Below, one piece after another: positions 46,516-58,682 of a DNA stretch of 64,000 nt. The stretch is from the NCBI GenBank assembly GCA_029242715.1, contig JAQWTL010000007.1, forward strand, positions 1-64,000, written 5' to 3'. Under the pieces are notes generated by a model. That model was given only the letters and a program-made list of their open reading frames with translations. It made no database searches and was not told the DNA's origin. Made by a program: the position numbers and the translations under genes. Positions within the stretch are counted from its first letter, which is position 1; each line of letters starts with the position of its first letter. This stretch comes from Phycisphaerales bacterium. Lineage in GTDB: Bacteria > Planctomycetota > Phycisphaerae > Phycisphaerales > SM1A02.

Positions 46516-48099
46516 TCAGCGGTGATCACATCCATAATCACCAAGAACAACCAGCAGGTCGTCGATGTCGGAGAAACCATCCCCAGTGACATCACCATCA
46601 GTTCCATGCCCCCAGCCCTCGACCATAAGTAACAGATCATCGATGTTGGTATGGAAAGTGCCGTTCAAGTCACCGTTGCAGGTGACGGGGCCAAGAGTCA
46701 GATCATTCAGTGAAATTGTCAGAGTCGCATCCTGTCCAGCAGGAAAAGTCACCAACGGTGACTTGGATCGTCCTCGCCATGTGTCCATGTTTTGAGTCGA
46801 GTAACCAGCCGCCTGCACTTTATTAAGGGCGTCAGACCAGACGTTGTAATGGGGTGTAGATGTACTAGGAGCCACAGAACTGTAAGCCTCCTTCATATAT
46901 TTCCATGAGGCCGAATCAATGTTTTTCAAAACAAAACTCTGTCCGGAACCAGTCAAGGAAAACAATGGCTCATAAGTACCGTCTGACAGTTGGCACTGGT
47001 TTCCAGGAATGGCCTTTACCTCAACAGATGCATTTATCATTCCTGTGTTTATTGCTGTGCAAATATCTTTCCACAGAAACAAGCCACAAGTAGAACCGCC
47101 CGAATGCGCTATGTTGGGTGGCGGCCAATCTTCGCGATAGATTGCATTAGTATAATCTTCATATGTGCCGCTAAACGAGTATCCCAAAGCACCGCCGCCT
47201 TCATTGTCTACTCCAGAAAAATTAAAAGTAATGTTCGTAGCTGTTGAGTCAACAGTGACATTGTAGTTGTAGCCAGTACAGTCAACGTTTGTTGAATTCA
47301 CAACTGTACTACATTGCGCTTCAGTGCCAACGCCAGTAATTGTTCCTACGGTTCCATTGAAATTGGCAACCCTCGTGCCATCGCCAGGAATACTAGTTAG
47401 ATAGGATTCGAAAGATGGGTAGATCTTTGAAAATATGTAATTGAAGTTAGCCCCCGTGGGAGATGAGTACCGCACGAAATTATTTTGACTATCTATCACC
47501 TTGCACTGATGTTGACCAGAAGGAACAACGTAACTCAATGCCTGCCTGATAGCTTTGTCTGTCGCATTGATTCTTTCGCCCACGGCTGCTCCACTACTGG
47601 CATTGACATTAAAACTCAGCGGTAGCGAGTAATAATTGATATTCGTCAGATTAACCTGTCCATTCGAATACTGATTGTCGTTGTTAAACGTGATTTCAAT
47701 CGGCTGCCACCTTAAGTAGTAACTAGAATTACTTGGGTTGTTACCGTCGACGGGCGTATTGTTCTCAAAACCAACACCGCTTGGATCTCGTCCAATGATC
47801 ATTCGTTCACTTGTTAGCCCTTTGACAATTATTCCCTGTGGGTAATCTTTCCACCAAAATGTCTGTTCCTTTAATGGAGCGGGCAACGGTGCATGAGATG
47901 AGTCGGCGCTTACTGCACTAGTTATGTCAGTAGTAAACCAAAAGAAGAAATCAGCACGTGAAACATTAGTTGCTCCAACATCCAGCTGAATTGTTAACTC
48001 ATTGTCGGCGGTAGCACACGCAGTCTTCCCGATCCCAAAGACACCAACAAAACAACCAACAACCATCATCACCAACAGATTTCGTTGTGTAAAAGGCAT
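46516..48099 (-). CDS. Secreted GH64-like (beta-1,3-glucanase family) protein with dockerin-like tail
   Basis: About 527 residues from an ATG preceded by GAGGGAGGG. A signal peptide leads into an Asn/Ser/Thr-rich domain. From memory of the family, its order of segments follows GH64: NPSNSSYYLRWQPIEITFN, TNINYYSLPLSFNV, FVRYSSPTGANFNYIF, YPSFESYL and CGLFLWKDICTAINTG. The Glu in PIEITF would align with the GH64 catalytic acid, while the expected Asp in the next strand appears as Asn. Two dockerin-like repeats close the protein. G+C is clearly lower than in neighbours (three 60-base lines counted by eye: 37, 40 and 48 percent, against 57 in the adjacent exporter), consistent with acquisition. 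Other beta-sandwich folds remain possible. Confidence 0.55.
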   Translation of the reverse strand: MPFTQRNLLVMMVVGCFVGVFGIGKTACATADNELTIQLDVGATNVSRADFFFWFTTDITSAVSADSSHAPLPAPLKEQTFWWKDYPQGIIVKGLTSERMIIGRDPSGVGFENNTPVDGNNPSNSSYYLRWQPIEITFNNDNQYSNGQVNLTNINYYSLPLSFNVNASSGAAVGERINATDKAIRQALSYVVPSGQHQCKVIDSQNNFVRYSSPTGANFNYIFSKIYPSFESYLTSIPGDGTRVANFNGTVGTITGVGTEAQCSTVVNSTNVDCTGYNYNVTVDSTATNITFNFSGVDNEGGGALGYSFSGTYEDYTNAIYREDWPPPNIAHSGGSTCGLFLWKDICTAINTGMINASVEVKAIPGNQCQLSDGTYEPLFSLTGSGQSFVLKNIDSASWKYMKEAYSSVAPSTSTPHYNVWSDALNKVQAAGYSTQNMDTWRGRSKSPLVTFPAGQDATLTISLNDLTLGPVTCNGDLNGTFHTNIDDLLLMVEGWGHGTDGDVTGDGFSDIDDLLVVLGDYGCDHR

Positions 48100-48256
48100 G
48101 GGTCCCTCCCTCAATTGAGCCAGACCTGGAAACGCCTGCTGGAACATCCACTCAGGCATTTGCAGGGCATCGGCCCAGAGACAAAAGACTAGTCAACAAT
48201 CACACGAGGTCCAGAGAGCACCCGCCAATTTGATGGGAATGTTGCCGGATGGCCAA

Positions 48257-49441
48257 TCATTCCGACGTGAGGCGAGATCCCGTATCGTCCAGTCCTGCAA
48301 ACAAATGAGCCTGGGACAGATCAGCACGAAGGGAAGCCGAGTCACCTTCACGCAGTCCGGAACCCGACGCGATTCGGGCCGTCATTCTTCGGTGATCGTT
48401 TGCGAGGATCACATCGGTTCGATCACCAAGTTGTTCCACCACCTCCGCTTCGCCCGTGAACATGGCATCACCATCAGGGGTGATTTGTTTACCTGTGAAC
48501 ATGGCATCACCATCGGAGACAAGTTCCAGATGCTCGGGTCGGATCCCCAGTGTGACCTGTTGACCAACCGACAACGATGGCCAGCGTTCCTTCGGCAGTT
48601 GGATGCGTACATCCCCATCAGCCTTGAACATCAGACCATCCTCGATCACACCTTTGAGAAAATTCATCTCTGGAGTACCGATGAATGAAGCCACGAACCG
48701 ATTGGCCGGATGTTCATACAACTCCGCCGGTGGACCACACTGCTGCACCACGCCATCCTTCATGACCACCAGTCGGTCACCCAACGTCATGGCTTCTTCC
48801 TGATCATGTGTGACATGAACCATCGTGGCGCCGAGCTGTCGATGCAACCGACGCAGTTCGGTGCGCATCTCGCTACGCAACTTGGCGTCGAGATTGGAGA
48901 GTGGTTCATCCAGCAGAAAGACGCTGGGGTCTCGGACGATCGCACGCCCCAGCGCGACACGCTGCCGCTGGCCGCCGGAGAGTTCACGTGGGCGACGTTC
49001 CAGGAGATCACTGAGACCCAGGACACTGGCGGCGTCCTGGACACGCTTGCGAATCGAGGTACGCTCCTCATGTCGCGATCGGCGATAGCTGCCTGAAATC
49101 AACGAACGCAGCAAGCTTGGGTACTGCCGTCGTCGCAACAGACCGAAGGACAGATTCTGCCCGACACTCATGTGGGGATAGAGCGCGTAATCCTGGAAGA
49201 CCATCGCGATATCACGATCACGGGCGGCCATCGTGTTGACCTTCCTCCCATCGATGAAGAGATCTCCATCCGTGATGCTTTCCAAGCCGGCGATCATCCG
49301 CAGCGTCGTGCTCTTGCCGCAACCAGACGGACCAACCAGGACAACGAACTCACCATCGGCAATCTCCAGTGAGACACCATCGACTGCCCGGACACCGCCG
49401 GGGTACGTCTTGCCGATTGTTTCGAGTCGTACATCTGCCAT
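48257..49441 (-). CDS. MalK/UgpC-type sugar ABC transporter ATPase
   Basis: 394 residues. Walker A GPSGCGKSTTLRMIAGLE, Q-loop VFQDYALYPHMS, signature LSGGQRQRVALGRAI and Walker B VFLLDEPLSNLDAKLRSEM are intact, followed by a TOBE/regulatory domain (GIRPEHLEL). Two oddities are seen: a basic insertion of ~20 residues (YPSLLRSLISGSYRRSR) between Q-loop and signature, and a 13-residue tandem duplication (DGDAMFTG twice) near 315-340. It powers the permeases encoded just upstream; the stop of the second permease is three bases away. Confidence 0.93.
   Translation of the reverse strand: MADVRLETIGKTYPGGVRAVDGVSLEIADGEFVVLVGPSGCGKSTTLRMIAGLESITDGDLFIDGRKVNTMAARDRDIAMVFQDYALYPHMSVGQNLSFGLLRRRQYPSLLRSLISGSYRRSRHEERTSIRKRVQDAASVLGLSDLLERRPRELSGGQRQRVALGRAIVRDPSVFLLDEPLSNLDAKLRSEMRTELRRLHRQLGATMVHVTHDQEEAMTLGDRLVVMKDGVVQQCGPPAELYEHPANRFVASFIGTPEMNFLKGVIEDGLMFKADGDVRIQLPKERWPSLSVGQQVTLGIRPEHLELVSDGDAMFTGKQITPDGDAMFTGEAEVVEQLGDRTDVILANDHRRMTARIASGSGLREGDSASLRADLSQAHLFAGLDDTGSRLTSE
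48456..48514. repeat. Pair of 20-base direct repeats, 39-base period
   Basis: GTGAACATGGCATCACCATC occurs at 48456-48475 and 48495-48514. The 39-base offset is exactly 13 codons, so the reading frame of the ATPase gene is kept and DGDAMFTG is encoded twice. It looks like a recent in-frame duplication. Confidence 0.85.
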
Positions 49442-49443
49442 CG

Positions 49444-50307
49444 TCAGCCCTTCACCGCTCCAGCGCCGATGCCTTCCACGAAGGCACGCTGCGCTGCAAA
49501 GAATAGAACAACACAGGGAATCATGGTGACTACGCTCACCGCCATCAACAGATGGACATTATCAAGGCCCCCGTACTGGTTCCGGAAGGAGTTCAAGGCC
49601 AGTGCCAGTGTGGACTGGTCATCGGAGTGCAGATAGATCAAAGGCCCGAGGAAATCATTCCAGACGAAGATGAAGGTGAAGATCGCCGTGATGGCCGTCA
49701 CCGGCTTGCACATCGGAAGAATGATCCGCCACCAGATGCCCAGCATGCCGTACCCGTCGATGCGGGCCGCTTCGATGAGCGACTCAGAGATCTGAGCGAT
49801 GAACTGCCGGTACATGAAGATGAAGAACGCGCTGCCGAAGAAGGCTGGGATGACCAAGGGCAGGATCGTGTCGATCCAACCCATTGATCGGAATACGAGG
49901 AACAACGGGATCATCGTCACCTGGGCTGGCAGCATCATGGTGGCAAGCATCAGAAGGAACAGCCCGCGACGTCCTCGAAAGTTGATGCGCGCGAAGGCAA
50001 AGCCGACCAGACTTGACGACAGGACTGTACCGATCACGACCAGCACCGTAATCACGATCGAGTTTGCAAGCGCATCAAAGAAACCCTGCCAGGGTTCGGT
50101 ACCGATCTGCTTGAGCGCCTCGGCATAGTTCGACCAGTGAATCTCCTCGGGCCAGACCGCAATGGAACCACCGCCTTCAGCCGCCGCTCCGGCACGCTGC
50201 GGTGACTCCAAGGAGATCACCAGCATCCACCACAGTGGGAACAGCATCGCGACCGAACCAATGGTCAGCGCCAGTCCCACCAGGAATCGTCCTGTCCAGC
50301 GACCCAT
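49444..50307 (-). CDS. Sugar ABC transporter permease, MalG/UgpE type
   Basis: 287 residues with six membrane helices. The EAA loop ESLIEAARIDGYGMLGIWWRIILP is present (core EAARIDG), as in binding-protein-dependent sugar permeases. A ~45-residue periplasmic segment follows the first helix. It pairs with the permease half of the upstream fusion protein, whose stop overlaps its start by a few bases. Substrate is inferred to be malto-oligosaccharide from the adjacent amylase genes. Confidence 0.92.
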   Translation of the reverse strand: MGRWTGRFLVGLALTIGSVAMLFPLWWMLVISLESPQRAGAAAEGGGSIAVWPEEIHWSNYAEALKQIGTEPWQGFFDALANSIVITVLVVIGTVLSSSLVGFAFARINFRGRRGLFLLMLATMMLPAQVTMIPLFLVFRSMGWIDTILPLVIPAFFGSAFFIFMYRQFIAQISESLIEAARIDGYGMLGIWWRIILPMCKPVTAITAIFTFIFVWNDFLGPLIYLHSDDQSTLALALNSFRNQYGGLDNVHLLMAVSVVTMIPCVVLFFAAQRAFVEGIGAGAVKG

Positions 50308-52694
50308 CAGCGAAGCCCCTCGTAGTGAACCATGCGTGCACTGCCACGCAACGTCAGCATCGTCAGGCCCAGGATGATCAACAACAGCAGCCAGGCCATG
50401 GCCGAGGCATATCCCATCTCGTAGAAATCAAAGGCCTGGTTGTAGAGATACAGAACATAGAAGCGAGTGTGATCGCCTGGCCCCCCGCCGGTCATGACGA
50501 ACGCTTGCGTGAAGACCTGGAAGGAACCGATCAGTGACATGATCACGTTGAACAGGATCACCGGCGAAATCATCGGCAGCGTCACACTGACGAAACGACG
50601 GACAGGACCTGCTCGATCAATCTCTGCCGCTTCATAAAGCGAACGCGGAACGTTCTGGAGCCCCGCGAGGTAGATCATCATGCTGCCACCAACCAGCCAG
50701 AGGCTCATGATCGCGAAGGCTGGACCACCGAAGTTCTCTGCATCCCGCACGAACCAGTCGGGCGGTTCCAATCCCAATGGAGAGAGCACGGGATCAAGAA
50801 TGACATTCATCAAACCGTTCTCGGCATTGAAGACCCAGCGGAACAGCACCGCCATGCCCACGCCGGCCAGAATGCTCGGCAGATACCAGGCGGCCCGGAA
50901 GAGGGACACGCCTCGGATCTTCACGTTCATCAACACGGCCCCCAGCAGGGCAACCACCTGCCCAATGGGGACCGCCAGCAATGCGTAGACACCGGTGACT
51001 TCCAAGCTGCGCCAGAACACGTCGTCGTGCCCCAACAAATGACCGTAGTTGGCCAGGCCCACGAAGTCTGCTTCATCGAGGGTGGTGATGCCACTCCAAC
51101 GCGTCACCGACAACGCCAGCGACAACAAGATGGGCACGGCCATGAAGAGAATGAATCCAATGATCCACGGTGAAACCAGCAACCACCCCGACCGTTCCTC
51201 GGTAGCACTGGCAGGATCCGGACGGTTGCGGCGTAACAACCACCAACCGATTGCCAAAGCGATCACAAGACCAATGATGAACACGCCCACAATCCACAGC
51301 CAGGGCATGCCGGGCAGTGACGGACTGGCCAACGGACTGTTCCGTTCCTGATCCCACCAGTCGCGTGCCTTGACGAGCGCGTCCTTGACCGGGAGGTCGC
51401 CGGTTCGCAGCGCCTGATCAAGTCGCTTGGCAACTGTTCCTTCCAATGCAGGGTTGGTCGACCAGGGCACGACCCGTGCATAGTCGACGGGATCGATGAA
51501 ATCGCGATCACGTGATGGTGGCGTCGTGGGATCGATGAACGAATCACCTTCCGCAACCATGCGATTGGTAGGAACAGCAAGACCGAGTTCGGCCTGCTCG
51601 GCCTGCGTGGTCGTGCCGGTCAACCAGGACACCAGTTGCCAGGCTTCTTCAGGATGCTCGGTCCGAGATGAAATCGACCAGGCCACCGTCGCAACCATGT
51701 TTGCAGATGTTTCGCCGCGCGGCAGTGGCGCATAATCCCATTGGAAGTCCTCGATCGATCGATAGGTCGGTACGACCCAGCGACCAAAGGGACCGGCAAA
51801 GCCAAGTTTGCCCCCGAGAAAACGTGATGCGGGATTGGCCGTCTCCGAGCGGCCGCTTGTCAGCGTGCGCTCTTCATCATGTCGCCAACTGCGAATGCGA
51901 TCCAGAACTTCAATGACACGCGGATCATCGGCTCGGATGTTCCCTTCGTCATCGATGAGATCAACACCCTCTGTCCACAGAACGGCCCGCACCATGGAAG
52001 CCCATGAAACGAATTCGGCACCGGTACAGTCAGGAAGCGAACCGACCGCACGCGCCGAGTCAATGAAGTCATCCCAGGTCCAATCGGATGATGGCTCAGG
52101 TACACCCGCACGCTCAAGAAGGTCACGGTTGTAATAGAAGCCGACCGTCGTGAAGTCCTTCGGAATCCCCCAGAGTGAGCCGACCCCGACCTGGCCATCC
52201 TGGAAACGGAACGCATCCACCGTTGATGGATAGAAATCCTGAAGATTGAAATCTTCGGCTGTGCTGTTCGAATTGGTCCGTTCATCGAGAGAAAGGAGCA
52301 GGCCGGCATCTGCATAGGCCGCCAGTCGTTCCGCCCCGACATAGAAGACATCCGGAGGATCGCCGGCAGCCATCATCGTCTGCAGCTTCGTATAGAAGGA
52401 ACCGGCATCCCCGGGGTTCAATCGGGTGACGTGGATGTCGGGGTTGGCCTCTTCAAACCGCGCGAGGGCCCGGTCAACGATGGCATCTTCGGCCGGGCCA
52501 CCATCGCCCGACCAGTGCATGACGACCAGTTCTGTCTTGCCCTTGGTCCCATCGCCATGAAAAATCTCGCGGACACCCACTCGTGCAAAGGCCCACGCCA
52601 CCAGTGCCAACGAAAGGATCAGAAGAATGGTCCGTGTGACCCGACCAGCAATGGCAGCAGGTGCTTGACTCGAGATACGGCGTTCACCGGACAT
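50307..52694 (-). CDS. Fusion of solute-binding protein and MalF/UgpA-type permease
   Basis: 795 residues in three parts. An uncleaved N-terminal helix (~19-40, ILLILSLALVAWAFARVG) anchors an extracellular family 1-type solute-binding domain (~50-455; VVMHWSGDGGPAEDAI, DPPDVFYVGAERLA, GIPKDFTTVGFYYNRDLL). A membrane helix at ~462-485 follows, then a six-helix permease with the EAA motif EAAEIDRAGPVRRFVSVTLP near 690. The frame is continuous with no sign of an internal start or stop at the junction. In most sugar transporters these are separate proteins. It is divergent from the GH13 amylase across 32 bases. Confidence 0.9.
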   Translation of the reverse strand: MSGERRISSQAPAAIAGRVTRTILLILSLALVAWAFARVGVREIFHGDGTKGKTELVVMHWSGDGGPAEDAIVDRALARFEEANPDIHVTRLNPGDAGSFYTKLQTMMAAGDPPDVFYVGAERLAAYADAGLLLSLDERTNSNSTAEDFNLQDFYPSTVDAFRFQDGQVGVGSLWGIPKDFTTVGFYYNRDLLERAGVPEPSSDWTWDDFIDSARAVGSLPDCTGAEFVSWASMVRAVLWTEGVDLIDDEGNIRADDPRVIEVLDRIRSWRHDEERTLTSGRSETANPASRFLGGKLGFAGPFGRWVVPTYRSIEDFQWDYAPLPRGETSANMVATVAWSISSRTEHPEEAWQLVSWLTGTTTQAEQAELGLAVPTNRMVAEGDSFIDPTTPPSRDRDFIDPVDYARVVPWSTNPALEGTVAKRLDQALRTGDLPVKDALVKARDWWDQERNSPLASPSLPGMPWLWIVGVFIIGLVIALAIGWWLLRRNRPDPASATEERSGWLLVSPWIIGFILFMAVPILLSLALSVTRWSGITTLDEADFVGLANYGHLLGHDDVFWRSLEVTGVYALLAVPIGQVVALLGAVLMNVKIRGVSLFRAAWYLPSILAGVGMAVLFRWVFNAENGLMNVILDPVLSPLGLEPPDWFVRDAENFGGPAFAIMSLWLVGGSMMIYLAGLQNVPRSLYEAAEIDRAGPVRRFVSVTLPMISPVILFNVIMSLIGSFQVFTQAFVMTGGGPGDHTRFYVLYLYNQAFDFYEMGYASAMAWLLLLIILGLTMLTLRGSARMVHYEGLR

Positions 52695-52726
52695 GGTTGA
52701 GGTGATCGTATAGGGTGGATGGATCC

Positions 52727-55129
52727 ATGTTGCTCACAATCGCCATCCTGGTTCTGGCCGGCCAAGCCGACATTCCTTCGACATGGCCCCCACCAGTCCC
52801 AAAAGCCCGGTCAACCCACCTGTCCGCTACCCAACTGCCCGACTCCATCTCGGGAAAACAAGATGCGGATGGGAACTGGCAACTGGATTTTCGATTTCGC
52901 CCCGCCAACCCGCTCCCTCCAGGAAGCCGGGTAGCCATTGCGGGCAACTTCAATCATTGGAGCACGACCTCCCAGCCCATGGTTCAACTGCGAAAAGGGA
53001 CCTGGCATGCTCGGATGACATTGGCTGACGGCACCTACTGGTACAAGTTCGTGATCAACGGGGACACGTGGCTGTCGGATCCTGGCAACCCGGTATCAGA
53101 TCCCGATGGCTATGGCGGAGTGAACTCAATCATTCGGCTGGGGTCCGTTGCGAATCTGGATGCTGGCAGGGCACGGCTCGGAGACGGTCATATCGATGCC
53201 AGTGGATTGGCCCACGATCCGGCCGAGCCACGCTATCTCCAGCGGCGTGATCCACAGACCTGGCGAATACGGTTTCGGACGCTTGCCCATGATGTCCAGA
53301 AAGTCAGTGTTGTTCGGCCAGGAGCCCCCCCGGTTGCGATGGCGGCTATTCTCGGTAACGATCGCGATCAATGGTGGGAAGCGGTTGTCCCAGATACCGG
53401 TGAGGCAGTCCCCTATACGTTCATCATCCAGGACGGCAAGACGCAAGAACGGCACCAAGACATCCACACCATGAGCGATTCCGAACAAATCAATTTCACA
53501 ACACCCGAATGGGCACGCGATGCCATCTGGTACCAGGTCATGATCGACCGGTTCCGCAACGGCAATGCCTCTAATAACCCGGATCCCATCCGACCATGGA
53601 ACTCGGCCTGGTACGAGGGAAGTCCATGGGAAGGTGCAGACGGGCAGACCTTCTATGAGTACTACGTCTTCGCAAGACGGTATGGCGGTGACATACAGGG
53701 CCTGCTTGAAAAACTCGACTACCTCTCGGATCTTGGCGTCAATGCGTTGTATCTGAATCCCGTGTTCGAGGCAGATAGTCCGCACAAGTACAACGCAACC
53801 AGTTACATCCACATCGATCAGGCCTTTGGACATGGAAGCGACTACGCCCAGGCCGAAGAACAGGAAGATCTGCTTGATCCTTCCACGTGGACCTGGAATG
53901 AAAGCGACCGACTCTTCCTGGACTTCCTGAAGGAAGCCCATGCTCGAGGATTCAAGGTGATCATCGATGGTGTCTTCAATCATGTCGGTGTCGATCACCC
54001 TGCCTTCCGTGATGTGCTGGAAAATGGTGAGGATTCACGCTTCACTGATTGGTTCTCCGTGACATCATGGGAACCGTTCGAATATGACTGCTGGGGTGGC
54101 TTCAAGAGTCTTCCGGTCTTTCGAAAGAATGATGAACACGGCATCGCCTCGGAGGAAGTCCGAAATCACATCATGCAAGTGACCACGCGCTGGATGGATC
54201 CGGATGGCGACGGGGATCCTTCCGATGGTATTGACGGTTGGCGGCTCGATGTCCCCAACGAGGTTCCACTGCCGTTCTGGATCGAGTGGCGAAAACATGT
54301 GAAATCGATCAATCCGGATGCCTACATCACGGGGGAAATCTGGACCCGTGCAGAGGAATGGCTGGATGGCCGTTCATTCGATGCGGTCATGAACTACCCA
54401 TTCGCAGAAAACACTCTGGCCTGGATCGGTAACCGTGAGGCCAAGATCACACCAACGGAACTGGATCGTCGACTGGCTGAACTTCGGTTGACTTATCCAG
54501 AGCCTGCAACCAACGTGCTTCAGAATCTCCTTGACAGTCATGACACGGACCGGTTCGTCTCCAAGATCCATAATCCGGATCGGCCCTATGACCAGGGCAA
54601 TCGCGAACAGCAGGATGCAAGCTATGACGGTTCCAAACCGCCAGAGGATGCGTATCGACGAGCTCGGCTCGCTGCCTTCGTGCAGTTCACCTATCTGGGC
54701 GCACCAATGATCTATTACGGCGATGAGGTTGGCATGTGGGGATCAGATGACCCCAATAACCGAAAGCCGATGCCCTGGCAGGACCACGGCCCTTATGCGG
54801 ATGATGGCTTTGAATTCATGCCTGAACATCTTGATTTCTACCGGAGAGTGATCGCTCTTCGAAATGAATCGGCCGCATTGCGCCGTGGTGAGTTCAGAAC
54901 AATCCAGGTCCACGACGACAATGACACCTGGGCCTTTGTCCGGACACTCGATGACGAGGAAATTCTGGTTGCAATCAATGCCTCTGACCGTGAGGCTGCG
55001 TTTGACATGCCTGATATCGGCAATGGATGGACACGGGTCTTCAGTGAACCAGCAGATGCCGATGCCGGTGATCCGCCTCGCATCACCTTGCCACCGCTGG
55101 GCGCTGCAGCGTGGCGCCGTCATCCATGA
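52727..55129 (+). CDS. Secreted GH13 alpha-amylase/neopullulanase-like enzyme
   Basis: About 800 residues. A short signal peptide (MLLTIAILVLAGQA) precedes a CBM48/AMPK-like domain (VAIAGNFNHWSTTSQ...YWYKFVINGDTWLSDP) and a second E-set domain. The GH13 barrel has region I IDGVFNHVG, nucleophile in DGWRLDVPNE (~506), acid/base in GEIW (~535) and LDSHDTDR (~604). The layout matches neopullulanase/cyclomaltodextrinase enzymes that cut starch, pullulan or cyclodextrins. The ATG at 52727 is preferred to the GTG at 52715. It shares four bases with malQ and is divergent from the sugar transporter. Confidence 0.93.
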   Translation: MLLTIAILVLAGQADIPSTWPPPVPKARSTHLSATQLPDSISGKQDADGNWQLDFRFRPANPLPPGSRVAIAGNFNHWSTTSQPMVQLRKGTWHARMTLADGTYWYKFVINGDTWLSDPGNPVSDPDGYGGVNSIIRLGSVANLDAGRARLGDGHIDASGLAHDPAEPRYLQRRDPQTWRIRFRTLAHDVQKVSVVRPGAPPVAMAAILGNDRDQWWEAVVPDTGEAVPYTFIIQDGKTQERHQDIHTMSDSEQINFTTPEWARDAIWYQVMIDRFRNGNASNNPDPIRPWNSAWYEGSPWEGADGQTFYEYYVFARRYGGDIQGLLEKLDYLSDLGVNALYLNPVFEADSPHKYNATSYIHIDQAFGHGSDYAQAEEQEDLLDPSTWTWNESDRLFLDFLKEAHARGFKVIIDGVFNHVGVDHPAFRDVLENGEDSRFTDWFSVTSWEPFEYDCWGGFKSLPVFRKNDEHGIASEEVRNHIMQVTTRWMDPDGDGDPSDGIDGWRLDVPNEVPLPFWIEWRKHVKSINPDAYITGEIWTRAEEWLDGRSFDAVMNYPFAENTLAWIGNREAKITPTELDRRLAELRLTYPEPATNVLQNLLDSHDTDRFVSKIHNPDRPYDQGNREQQDASYDGSKPPEDAYRRARLAAFVQFTYLGAPMIYYGDEVGMWGSDDPNNRKPMPWQDHGPYADDGFEFMPEHLDFYRRVIALRNESAALRRGEFRTIQVHDDNDTWAFVRTLDDEEILVAINASDREAAFDMPDIGNGWTRVFSEPADADAGDPPRITLPPLGAAAWRRHP

Positions 55130-56541
55130 CTCGTCCTCATGACCTTTTTACGAGCCGTGCGGCCGGTGTGCTCCTGCACCCGACATCACTTTCACGAGGT
55201 CATGGCATCGGCGACATCGGGCCGGGCGCGAGACAGTTCGTTGATTGGATGTCCCGAGCCGGGTTGTCCCTGTGGCAGATGCTTCCCATCGGGCCAGCAG
55301 GACGCGGGAACTCTCCTTACAGCGGGCAATCCGCTTTCGCTGGAGAGCCGCTTCTTATCAGCTTGCATGATCTGGTGAAAGATGGCTTGCTGCCGAACCG
55401 AGCAGCACGTTGTCCTGCGGAACTCGCATCGGGTTCAACTCGATATGCAGCCGCACGACGATTCAAGGCCTCCCGTTTTCAAGAGGCCTTCGACAACTTC
55501 CACAAGGGCGGTCGATCCAGATCTCGAAGTTATCGCGACTTCGCTTCCGCCAATCGTCATTGGCTGCATGGCTGGTGCCTCTACGCTGGAGGCGAACCTG
55601 ATGAACAAGTCTTCCTGCAGTACATCTTTGACCGTCAATGGAAAGCACTTCGCAAGTATGCCAATCGTCAACACATTCGATTGATTGGTGATCTTCCGAT
55701 CTTTGTAGATCTCGATTCAGCAGATGTTGCTCAGTATCCTGATCTCTTCCTTCTGGATCGATCAGGCAATCCGAAATGGCTCACAGGTGTGCCGCCTGAT
55801 CGCTTCAGTCGAAATGGACAACTCTGGAATCACCCCCAGTACCGTTGGCCTGCCCATCGCAATGAGAACTGGCGATGGTGGACGGCACGATTCCGCCAGG
55901 CGCTTGACCGTTTCGATGCAATCCGGCTTGATCACTTCATCGGCTTCGTCAGGCTCTGGCATGTGCCAGCTGGTAGTCGAACAGCTCGAAATGGGCGATG
56001 GAGGCCAACCCCGGGTCGTGAACTCCTGAAAGTCCTTCGAAAGCGATTGGGCTCCCTGCCGATCATTGCCGAGGATCTTGGGGCCAAGACCCCTGCCGTG
56101 GACCGACTTCGTGATGAATTCGGCCTCCCAGGCATGCGCGTCCTCCAATGGGCATTTGGAAGTTCTGACAGCGGGGACCTGCCTCACAACCACCCTCAGC
56201 AATCAGTGGTCTATCCAGGCACTCATGACAACGAGACGGCCACCGGCTGGGCCCGCCGACTCGATTCCAGCACTCGACGACGTTTCAACGCATATGCAGG
56301 CCAGTCAGAGCCTGCCGCTGATGCCCTGGTGCGATTGGCGATGACCTCCCCGGCGACCTGGGCCATCTGCCCGGCTCAGGATCTGCTTGGCCTCCCTCCC
56401 AATACCCGGATGAACCGTCCTGGAGTTGCCAGGGGGAACTGGACGTGGAGGCTCTCCGAGGGCACACTGTCGAACCTTCGAGCCAGGGAACTACGCATTC
56501 TGGCCGAATCAAGTGGACGTGTTCCAGGAGTGAATTCGTGA
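55126..56541 (+). CDS. malQ: 4-alpha-glucanotransferase
   Basis: 471 residues, GH77. AAGVLLHPTSLSRGHGIGDIG at the start (core LHPTSL), LIGDLPIFVD, the nucleophile region AIRLDHFIGF, IIAEDLG (acid/base) and GTHDNETATGW are all present. It disproportionates malto-oligosaccharides in the cytoplasm, making substrate for phosphorylase. The ATG overlaps the amylase stop (ATGA). It is shorter than E. coli MalQ, like amylomaltases of the compact type. Confidence 0.94.
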   Translation: MTRPHDLFTSRAAGVLLHPTSLSRGHGIGDIGPGARQFVDWMSRAGLSLWQMLPIGPAGRGNSPYSGQSAFAGEPLLISLHDLVKDGLLPNRAARCPAELASGSTRYAAARRFKASRFQEAFDNFHKGGRSRSRSYRDFASANRHWLHGWCLYAGGEPDEQVFLQYIFDRQWKALRKYANRQHIRLIGDLPIFVDLDSADVAQYPDLFLLDRSGNPKWLTGVPPDRFSRNGQLWNHPQYRWPAHRNENWRWWTARFRQALDRFDAIRLDHFIGFVRLWHVPAGSRTARNGRWRPTPGRELLKVLRKRLGSLPIIAEDLGAKTPAVDRLRDEFGLPGMRVLQWAFGSSDSGDLPHNHPQQSVVYPGTHDNETATGWARRLDSSTRRRFNAYAGQSEPAADALVRLAMTSPATWAICPAQDLLGLPPNTRMNRPGVARGNWTWRLSEGTLSNLRARELRILAESSGRVPGVNS

Positions 56542-58682
56542 TTGAACGGAATGTGCCAGGTGAATCCACAAGGAACCGACTGGAAGATGATCCACGCGCC
56601 ATCAGACATCGATTGAAGGCCCTTTCAAAGGACCTGTGGTGGTCATGGAATGAAATCGGTCGCCGACCATTTGCGATGCTTGACCCAGAGCTCTGGGAAG
56701 CCGTCAGGTACAGCCCCTTTCGTCTGCTGCAGAAACTCGACTCGAACATCTACACCAGTCGACTGGCCGAGCCCTCCTTCCGGGAAGTCGCTGCCAGGGC
56801 CATCAATGCCCATCATGAATATCACAACAGACGAAGCTGGCACGAGGCGAATTCGGATCCCTCTGATCCCCCACTCCGCATCGCCTACTTCTGCTCGGAG
56901 TACGCGATCCATGAAAGTCTCCCGCAATATGCCGGTGGACTTGGAGTACTCGCAGGTGATCACCTCAAGTCTGCGTCAGATCTCGGACTGCCTCTGATAG
57001 CGGTTGGCCTGTTGTACCAGCACGGTTACTACAAGCAGGAATTCCGTGATGATGGATCCACTCGGGTGATCTATCCATCCTTTGATGCGGATGCGATGCC
57101 TTTGGAAGACACCGGCGTTCGTCTTGATTGCCCCATTGGCGACCGAACCGTTCGTGTACGTATCTGGTCGATGTCGATGGGACGTGTCCCCCTCTATCTG
57201 CTCGATGCCAATCTGCCCGGCAACAGAGTTGAAGATCGGGCACTGACCGCAAGCCTCTATCAAGGTGATGATGACATTCGTCTTCAAAGACAGGTCCTGC
57301 TTGGTGTCGGAGGCTTCCGGGCACTGCGACTTCTGGAAGAAATACCAACGGTCATCCATCTCAACGAAGGCCATGCCGCATTTGCCGCTGTCGCGAAGAT
57401 GGCCGAGCTTGTTCAGGGAGGGATGGACCTTGAAGAGGCCAAGCAGCTCGTCCGATCAAGTACGGTATTCACAACACATACACCTGTCCCGGCAGGCAAC
57501 CAGAGATATGACGCCAACAAACTTCGTGAGGCACTGAAGCCGGTGCTTGAACCAGCAGGACTTGATCCTGACATGGTCACACAACTGGGTCGTGAGAATC
57601 CAGATGATCAACATGAAGCCCCGTGCATGACGGTACTTGCACTGCGACTGGCAGAACGAGTGAACGGCGTGTCTGAACTGCACGGTGCTGTATCTCGCGA
57701 CATGTGGAAGAACGCCTACGGTCTTGAGGACCCGGACCAGGTTCCGATCAAGCACATCACCAACGGCGTACATACCGGAACATGGATGGCGCCTGTCGCT
57801 GAAAGATTCTGGTCAGAAACCATCGAGTACACCAAGACCCCTGGCCCCAAGAACCCCTGCTGGGCTCGAGCGGAATCAGTTGATCCTCGTGCCTTCTGGG
57901 ACTTGCGTGAAGCCTTGAGAAGACGATTGCTTTCCTTCGTGCGTCGCCGGCTGGCCATCCAATCAAGACGGCGAGGCGAAAGCCCGGAAAGAGTGGTCCG
58001 AAGCCGTCGCATTTTCCAGGACTCTGCACTGACCATCGGCTTCGCCCGTCGATTCGCGACCTACAAGCGTGCAACCTTGTTATTCCATGATCTGGACAGG
58101 CTTGCCAATATTCTTGGAAACCCTGATCGTCCTGTACAGGTGATCTTTGCAGGCAAAGCCCATCCGGCCGACGAAGGTGGACAGGCCGTCGCGCAACGTA
58201 TTCACGATCTGTGCCTGGAATCAAGATTCGATGGACGAATCGTCCTGCTTGAGAACTACGACATCGAGATCGGACGACGCCTGACTTCTGGCTGCGATCT
58301 CTGGCTCAATACACCACGTCGGCCCTTTGAAGCCAGCGGTACCAGCGGCATGAAACCGCCACTGCATGGTGGACTCAATTGTTCTATCCCAGACGGTTGG
58401 TGGGTTGAAGCGGATGATGGCCGCAATGGTTGGACCATCGGAGACGGCAGCTCTTCTGAAAATGAAGGTGTCCAGGATGATCAGGATGCAAACATCCTGT
58501 ATGACCTTCTTGAGCAGGAGATCATTCCAGCTTTCTGGGATCGCGATGATCAGGGGCTGCCCCAGGCCTGGATTGAACGTGCCCTGCATACGGTGGCCAC
58601 GATCCCGGAGTGGTTCAATACAGACCGCATGGTGGCTGAGTACCTTGAATGGGGTTACAAGCCCGCCTCTGTACAGGTGTAA
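56538..58682 (+). CDS. glgP: Alpha-glucan phosphorylase (short type)
   Basis: 714 residues from a GTG that overlaps the malQ stop (GTGA) and has AGGAG seven bases upstream. The N-terminal DLWWSWN and YFCSEYAIHESLPQYAGGLG, then FATYKRATLL and EASGTSGMKPPLHGG with the pyridoxal-phosphate lysine near 604, identify the compact phosphorylase group of bacteria and archaea. It releases glucose 1-phosphate from alpha-1,4-glucans. Together with the amylase, MalQ and transporter it completes an alpha-glucan catabolic route. Confidence 0.93.
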   Translation: MIERNVPGESTRNRLEDDPRAIRHRLKALSKDLWWSWNEIGRRPFAMLDPELWEAVRYSPFRLLQKLDSNIYTSRLAEPSFREVAARAINAHHEYHNRRSWHEANSDPSDPPLRIAYFCSEYAIHESLPQYAGGLGVLAGDHLKSASDLGLPLIAVGLLYQHGYYKQEFRDDGSTRVIYPSFDADAMPLEDTGVRLDCPIGDRTVRVRIWSMSMGRVPLYLLDANLPGNRVEDRALTASLYQGDDDIRLQRQVLLGVGGFRALRLLEEIPTVIHLNEGHAAFAAVAKMAELVQGGMDLEEAKQLVRSSTVFTTHTPVPAGNQRYDANKLREALKPVLEPAGLDPDMVTQLGRENPDDQHEAPCMTVLALRLAERVNGVSELHGAVSRDMWKNAYGLEDPDQVPIKHITNGVHTGTWMAPVAERFWSETIEYTKTPGPKNPCWARAESVDPRAFWDLREALRRRLLSFVRRRLAIQSRRRGESPERVVRSRRIFQDSALTIGFARRFATYKRATLLFHDLDRLANILGNPDRPVQVIFAGKAHPADEGGQAVAQRIHDLCLESRFDGRIVLLENYDIEIGRRLTSGCDLWLNTPRRPFEASGTSGMKPPLHGGLNCSIPDGWWVEADDGRNGWTIGDGSSSENEGVQDDQDANILYDLLEQEIIPAFWDRDDQGLPQAWIERALHTVATIPEWFNTDRMVAEYLEWGYKPASVQV

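Follow-up and report, generated by a model that had tools for sequence, protein, structure and literature searches.

Results

A sugar-binding domain and a permease share one frame

The stretch analyzed here (the window) comprises 64,000 nucleotides of contig JAQWTL010000007.1 from a Phycisphaerales bacterium (Planctomycetota; assembly GCA_029242715.1), and the gene in question, P0001, joins a sugar solute-binding protein (SBP) to a permease of the ATP-binding cassette (ABC) type. On the minus strand, from position 52694 down to 50307, a single frame of 795 codons runs to one terminal stop; the plus-strand translation of 50307-52694 contains internal stops. The first-pass annotation had proposed a joined frame between these positions, which was borne out; the strand, which it had left unstated, is added here. 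The gene and its parts are as follows.

50307..52694, minus strand: fused SBP-permease gene P0001, 795 amino acids (intact frame, Pfam domains, AlphaFold model, homologues)
52560..52664, minus strand: N-terminal helix, residues 11-45, an inner-membrane anchor or a cleaved signal peptide (model helix, hydropathy, charge)
51330..52547, minus strand: periplasmic sugar-binding domain, residues 50-455 (SBP_bac_1/SBP_bac_8, solved-structure matches, invariant Trp)
51228..51302, minus strand: second helix, residues 465-489, the joint from binding domain to permease, followed by an Arg-rich stretch (hydropathy, model)
50310..51215, minus strand: MalF/UgpA-like permease core, residues 494-795, EAA loop at ~688-707 (BPD_transp_1, structure matches, invariant residues)

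Three Pfam families matched the 795-residue chain above their curated cut-offs, namely SBP_bac_1 (residues 71-364, E 1.6e-36), SBP_bac_8 (77-387, E 2.8e-29), and BPD_transp_1 (598-779, E 2.9e-11). An AlphaFold model of the fused chain, for which 63 fused sequences served as input, reached a mean predicted local distance difference test score (pLDDT) of 87 and a predicted template modeling score (pTM) of 0.80; it contained helix 11-45, the binding domain (~50-455), helix 465-489, and the permease helices. Frame, Pfam, and model thus agree with the earlier proposal that a type I sugar SBP and a MalF/UgpA-type permease reside in one chain. The junction was inspected in silico for a frameshift or a stop, neither of which was found there, and the same joined frame recurs in relatives. 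The sequence by itself would also allow an internal start inside the fused frame.

By sequence, the solved chain closest to the binding domain was AbnE (6rjy_A; E 2.7e-44, 27% identity), and by fold it was Lmo0181 (5f7v_A; Z 42.8, root-mean-square deviation 2.7, 380 residues aligned), with the maltose-binding proteins 3uor, 6dtr, and 8art matching the fold at Z 38-39. Seven Trp residues of the binding domain (61, 205, 207, 231, 306, 319, and 339) are invariant. The permease half matched the structures of a sugar permease (7cad_A, E 1.8e-19), SugA (8ja7, 1.2e-18), and MalF (2r6g_F, 4.4e-15), and residues E688, A689, D693, T705, and P707, located in the motif at ~688-707 that we take to be the EAA loop, are invariant across the fused chains. 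The best NCBIfam model for the permease was UgpA (residues 503-791, 107.4 bits, equivalog cut-off 335) and the third was MalF (545-785, 65.4 bits, equivalog cut-off 392); the scores were also far below the equivalog cut-offs for MalE and MalG. Because the UgpA and MalF scores fall far short, the permease half is assigned by sequence to the MalF/UgpA type, as an equivalog of neither. No fused CUT1 structure was among the solved-structure matches, a comparison that covered mainly the binding domain and hence proves nothing.

The neighboring genes point to maltodextrins as the probable substrate

The fusion is flanked by the remaining components of a putative importer on the same strand and by genes for alpha-glucan metabolism on the opposite one.

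49444..50307, minus strand: MalG/UgpE-like second permease without a binding domain (BPD_transp_1 E 9e-21, above its cut-off; UgpE 116 bits, below a cut-off of 297)
48257..49441, minus strand: MalK/UgpC-like ATPase with OB and TOBE_2 domains (ABC_tran, OB_MalK, TOBE_2; UgpC subfamily 437.7 bits, above the cut-off of 432)
52715..55129, plus strand: GH13 amylase/cyclomaltodextrinase-like gene, divergent, with an N-terminal hydrophobic segment (Alpha-amylase, CBM_48, AMPK1_CBM)
55111..56541, plus strand: GH77 4-alpha-glucanotransferase (E 5.7e-137)
56445..58682, plus strand: alpha-glucan phosphorylase-like gene (frame; named by eye)

The start codon of the MalG-like gene overlaps the stop of the fusion by one base, and the gene for the MalK/UgpC-like ATPase starts two bases further on; visual inspection of the MalG-like translation showed an EAA loop. 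Only ~20-32 bases (52694-52727) separate the divergent starts of the fused and GH13 genes, so that any promoters must overlap coding starts, and the layout is similarly tight in relatives. A scan for promoters and terminators was uninformative (2 promoter-like sites versus 1.6 expected, 6 terminator-like sites versus 4.1 expected).

Conservation of the neighbors was counted over the fused loci of named genomes with enough flanking sequence, near-copies included. malG was the next gene downstream of the fusion in 65 of 66 loci and malK lay downstream in 43 of 47; the divergent GH13 neighbor was kept in 54 of 61, and GH77 and a phosphorylase-like homologue were found within 6 kb in 40 and 37 of 47 loci, respectively. 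Import of maltodextrins is suggested by this arrangement, with fusion-malG-malK on one strand and GH13, GH77, and phosphorylase-like genes on the other. The GH13 enzyme is probably exported, as judged by eye from its sequence.

The same fused importer could instead serve another oligosaccharide, derived for example from arabinan, laminarin, or a cyclic glucan, with the amylolytic neighbors devoted to glycogen turnover. The closest solved domains bind arabino-oligosaccharides (6rjy), cycloalternan (5f7v), and beta-1,2-gluco-oligosaccharides (5ysd), GH77 and phosphorylase are also part of glycogen metabolism, and the protein adjoining MalK has a sub-threshold match to GH64. However, the widely kept GH13 neighbor looks exported, and cycloalternan, too, is an alpha-glucan; we regard another substrate as possible but unlikely. 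The binding domain by itself does not fix the substrate.

The GH64 match just mentioned (20.5 of 27 bits) belongs to a gene at 46516-48159 on the minus strand, the product of which carries dockerin-like C-terminal repeats (by eye). Its G+C content is ~0.43-0.48 compared with ~0.54-0.60 in the surroundings, and it may therefore have been acquired. Extra sequence of ~1.2-1.7 kb separates malG and malK in 14 of the fused loci (L008, L011-L016, L018, L026, L027, L029, L061, L064, and L071).

A search of the genome with PF01547 returned two matches, the fused gene and a 31.9-bit match in a protein of 583 amino acids. The latter is encoded between pyrF-like and pyruvate-kinase-like genes (named by eye); this context is not that of a sugar-importer gene, and the protein was rejected as a free sugar SBP. 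No free sugar SBP was thus found in the genome with PF01547, the one SBP family searched, and within that search the gene content supports the earlier suggestion that no free binding protein is needed. The same genome encodes another type of fused permease, a 587-residue frame with two BPD_transp_1 stretches (G000:C22:23426-24877; L118 and L120).

The joint between binding domain and permease

The first helix has its hydropathy peak, 2.32, at residues 23-41, and the second (465-489) reaches 2.63. Mean net charge is +2.3 in residues 1-22 and likewise in residues 486-502; peaks and charges fit cytoplasmic ends enclosing a periplasmic binding domain. After residue 35 lies a possible cleavage site, with small or aliphatic residues at -3/-1 in 62 of 63 homologues, so the first helix may be a retained anchor or a cleaved signal peptide. 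In any case, the binding domain stays joined to helix 465-489. The invariant Trp447 and Trp465 flank the junction and are separated by 17 residues in 60 of the 63 homologues. Compared with the nearest relative (locus L003), the ratio of nonsynonymous to synonymous substitution rates (dN/dS) was ~0.06 in the binding domain, ~0.03 in the junction, and ~0.05 in the permease.

Were the chain processed after translation into a permease and a binding protein, free or anchored, the fusion would serve only to set their amounts at 1:1. The permissive signal-peptidase motif near residue 35 could indeed free the N-terminus, and the sequence of the junction varies among relatives. A cut near residue 35, however, leaves the binding domain attached to the permease, and the near-constant Trp447-Trp465 spacing together with the continuous model helix 465-489 looks like a structural joint, which makes such processing quite improbable.

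The fusion is widespread in two phyla

In the survey of named genomes, 112 loci were confirmed and the best 80 kept. The first-pass annotation had proposed to look in other genomes for the domain order SBP_bac_1 followed by BPD_transp_1. The joined frame was found in 67 of these best 80 loci; five were cut by contig ends, and eight had separate genes. The latter were titled Alicyclobacillus, Chthonomonas, Fimbriimonadaceae, Paenibacillaceae, Tissierellia, Paenibacillus, Chloroflexi, and Clostridia, and two of these eight genomes (G431 and G432) contained stop-free full-length fused matches elsewhere. The nearest named relatives were titled Phycisphaerae and Phycisphaerales. Among near relatives, a full-length fused match was present in 21 of 61 (5 of 6 of the genus, 16 of 37 of the family), in every case without internal stops; none of the five genus members with a match has a stop or frameshift at the junction. 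That a lost stop or a frameshift merged two neighboring genes, as an artefact of assembly or annotation, is suggested by the draft state of the genome (46 contigs) and by the same genes being separate neighbors in other phyla, but is rejected as practically impossible by the intact frame, by the zero stops inside the 21 full-length matches of near relatives, and by the recurrence of the same frame in the 67 loci, including records titled complete genomes (CP036296 and CP054190).

Samples of individual phyla, the names of which are a reading of record titles, were then compared. Stop-free full-length fusions occurred in 25 of 392 Planctomycetota genomes, at 26 places. Long frames around partial Planctomycetota matches added 15 diverged fused chains (L147, L148, L151-L155, and L160-L167); both domains were found by Pfam in all four that were tested (L147, L155, L160, and L167). 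The same check confirmed L169 and L170 as fused, and five of the 20 long frames fetched (L156-L159 and L168) proved unfused. In the sample read as Armatimonadota (121 genomes; the phylum of G431, so read because its locus was titled Chthonomonas), 39 of the full-length matches listed, in 32 genomes, were free of stops, and 7 contained stops. Among 151 genomes read as Chloroflexota, none of the 8 full-length matches listed was stop-free; two long frames whose matched stretch was stop-free (G686:C109 and G618:C90) turned out to be separate genes. Among 199 genomes read as Bacillota, none of 7 full-length matches at E <= 1e-100 was stop-free. Of 25 plasmid rows listed, 6 bear annotation, and in these the matches spanning the query consisted of at least two separate genes.

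Scoring was limited to 2 candidates per genome in Planctomycetota, 8 in Armatimonadota, 6 in Chloroflexota, and 5 in Bacillota, at E cut-offs of 1e-20, 1e-60, 1e-60, and 1e-100, respectively; diverged fusions are therefore undercounted, most of all in the Bacillota sample. The fusion is not a one-off, as the architecture is widespread in Planctomycetota and in a second phylum, read as Armatimonadota. Contigs carrying this fusion were also titled Bacteroidia (L010, 57% identity), Chitinophaga pinensis (L045, 56%), and Limnohabitans (L059, 52%); these are probably misnamed or misbinned records, and less so cases of transfer.

Phylogeny of the two domains

Separate trees, all of them quick searches that included long rows, were computed for the two domains. 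For the permease, 215 rows were found (163 fused, 52 not, duplicates included), of which 129 (81 fused) entered the first tree; 41 more, long rows and near-copies, were dropped by hand for the pruned tree, leaving 55 fused and 33 unfused. For the binding-domain trees, no SBP was found on the locus of 8 of the 48 unfused rows, and 14 of the other 121 rows were dropped; for the pruned tree and its test, 30 of the 121 were dropped, leaving 64 fused and 27 unfused. One "unfused" SBP inside a fused clade of the first binding-domain tree (L221_u) was dropped because, by a guess, another fused gene probably starts there, L211 was left out of the pruned binding-domain tree, and L156 and L159 were kept as unfused despite their long frames.

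For both domains the fused group of the window formed a single clade, with 35 rows in the permease tree (support of 95 in the Shimodaira-Hasegawa-like approximate likelihood-ratio test, SH-aLRT) and 34 in the binding-domain tree (support of 99; after pruning 28 rows, 98.8). The pair L171/L172 from the Armatimonadota sample fell inside this clade in both trees. Such agreement fits a single joining event, after which the two domains descended together. L211 was placed in this clade in the binding-domain tree, but the permease tree grouped it with unfused rows.

When all fused rows were considered, the permease tree required 9 state changes (2 forced by starred branches) and 6 after pruning, and the binding-domain tree 7 (5 forced) and 5 (3 forced), respectively. 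In the approximately unbiased (AU) test, a single clade of all fusions was not rejected by the permease tree (p-AU 0.283; 55 fused versus 33 unfused rows) but was rejected by the binding-domain tree (p-AU 1.2e-62; 64 fused versus 27 unfused rows). The conflict reflects either several joinings (or splittings) or exchange of binding domains on fused chains; repeated exchange would explain why the trees disagree. A tentative proposal, in which we place limited trust, is that Planctomycetota and Armatimonadota repeatedly joined sugar SBPs to CUT1 permeases, or repeatedly swapped domains on a fused chassis, and that sugar importers of this "self-delivering" kind are a regular class there.

L160-L167 and L206 form a far-diverged, well-supported fused clade of eight members from the Planctomycetota and one from the Armatimonadota sample, with frames of 817-1081 residues. 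L206 carries both domains (Pfam), as do L160 and L167, and the clade probably has other substrates.

Discussion

We assign a probability of roughly three in four to the reading that the fused gene, malG, and malK encode a CUT1-type ABC importer that takes up alpha-glucan oligosaccharides (most likely maltodextrins) and has its SBP as a permanent domain of the MalF-like chain. Several observations weigh against it. A minority of loci showed no trace of the neighbors (GH13 in 7 of 61, GH77 in 7 of 47, the phosphorylase-like gene in 10 of 47), and as the solved binding domain closest in sequence (6rjy) takes arabino-oligosaccharides, the substrate assignment rests on the gene neighbors. A full-length fused match was lacking in 40 of the 61 relatives, including one of six in the genus. 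Against the more distant L004-L007, dN/dS of the junction was ~0.12 to 0.55, and across all five comparisons (L003-L007) the first 49 residues were loosely constrained, at ~0.23 to 0.57; synonymous sites were close to saturation. Signal-peptide cleavage after residue 35, an internal start, or a later proteolytic cut at the junction may also occur.

As an importer of alpha-glucan oligosaccharides, the complex would consist of the fused MalEF chain, MalG, and two MalK, with one binding domain per pore, kept in the periplasm by a short tether whose length hardly varies. There, the domain would catch oligosaccharides freed by the exported GH13 enzyme; once loaded, it would dock on its own MalF-MalG, the ATPase cycle would open it as in MalFGK2, and cytoplasmic GH77 and phosphorylase would process the imported sugar. 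Tethering would free docking from the copy number of the binding protein and from the size of the periplasm, at the cost of the affinity gained from an excess of free binding protein.

This cost bears on the kinetics. In the kinetic model of PMC8168909, specific affinity increases as binding proteins become more abundant, provided that they outnumber the transport units, and slow diffusion and large periplasms are the cost of free binding proteins; a fixed ratio therefore gives up that gain. The "low-flux, high-affinity" uptake originally envisaged for the fusion is not supported, since this model argues for the reverse. The analysis points to the reverse trade-off, in which the half-saturation constant would lie nearer the dissociation constant (KD) of the domain itself and handover would be faster, as a tethered domain would skip the search step and could not be made in excess. 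In cellulolytic clostridia, internal terminators control SBP:translocator ratios (PMC9045158).

As part of the tentative proposal above, the fusion could answer the enlarged, convoluted periplasm of planctomycetes, where free binding proteins would be diluted and slow to find the pump; affinity would then have to come from the KD of the domain instead of from excess copies. The periplasm idea leaves the Armatimonadota fusions unexplained. The affinity-from-excess claim of PMC8168909 becomes directly testable with a natural CUT1 importer that ties each MalF-like chain to a single binding domain, is conserved in two phyla, and can be compared with unfused relatives. Such chains are expected to be annotated as either "binding protein" or "permease," which hides half of the function, and surveys counting free sugar SBPs would be expected to miss sugar uptake in these two phyla. 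The main value lies in the breadth and possible recurrence of the architecture, more than in the single gene.

Comparison with known systems

With the MalEFGK2 and UgpBAEC importers of E. coli, the system shares a homologous binding domain, two different permeases, one MalK/UgpC-type ATPase, and a neighborhood of the maltodextrin type; there, however, the binding protein is free in the periplasm, whereas here it is a domain of the MalF-like chain. An SBP_bac_1 domain, two BPD_transp_1 permeases with an EAA loop, and a MalK/UgpC-type ATPase with OB/TOBE domains are all present, as in other CUT1 importers; a separate free or lipid-anchored SBP, which is customary in CUT1 systems but no element of their definition by homology, was not found with PF01547. 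As the SBP is fused rather than separate, the system is filed as a variant of the CUT1 type, and ATP-driven oligosaccharide uptake is predicted for it. In many of the unfused counterparts from Bacillota, Chloroflexota, and plasmids, the SBP gene likewise directly precedes the MalF-like gene, but stops lie between SBP and permease; this layout is likely the arrangement before fusion.

Domain-architecture databases presumably list chains of SBP_bac_1 plus BPD_transp_1. No description of a fused CUT1 binding protein was found in the open-access literature, most subscription papers and the architecture databases lying outside this search, and the portions drawn on of PMC8276074, PMC3899296, and PMC11131199 held nothing on a fused CUT1 SBP.

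Fused binding domains occur in other importers. The SBPs of some Gram-negative bacteria carry a lipid anchor or are tethered to the translocator (PMC8025302). GlnPQ of Lactococcus, an amino-acid importer, has tandem binding domains fused N-terminally to the permease, two per chain, and four binding sites per complex (PMC8025302). The position N-terminal of the permease in one chain is the same here, but each fused chain has one binding domain, and two different permeases (MalF-MalG) are paired. The glycine-betaine importer OpuA of Lactococcus has two binding domains of its own that act cooperatively (PMC11065425). As in OpuA, the binding domain here is part of a type I importer; in contrast to its two cooperative domains, Pfam found a single domain, on the fused chain, and the MalG-like partner had none. 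One sugar-SBP domain is expected per MalF-MalG pair. The binding domains of OpuA stand at the C-terminal side, and those of GlnP presumably belong to another SBP family than that of the fused chain. OpuAC and SBP_bac_3, which we take to be the family names of the OpuA and GlnP domains, did not match at E <= 0.001, where SBP_bac_1 and SBP_bac_8 were the only binding-protein families. A fused binding domain, as in the OpuA/GlnPQ type, is nonetheless evident in sequence and model. Fused binding domains are already known from GlnPQ and OpuA, and the CUT1 sugar importer is a further variant of this design.

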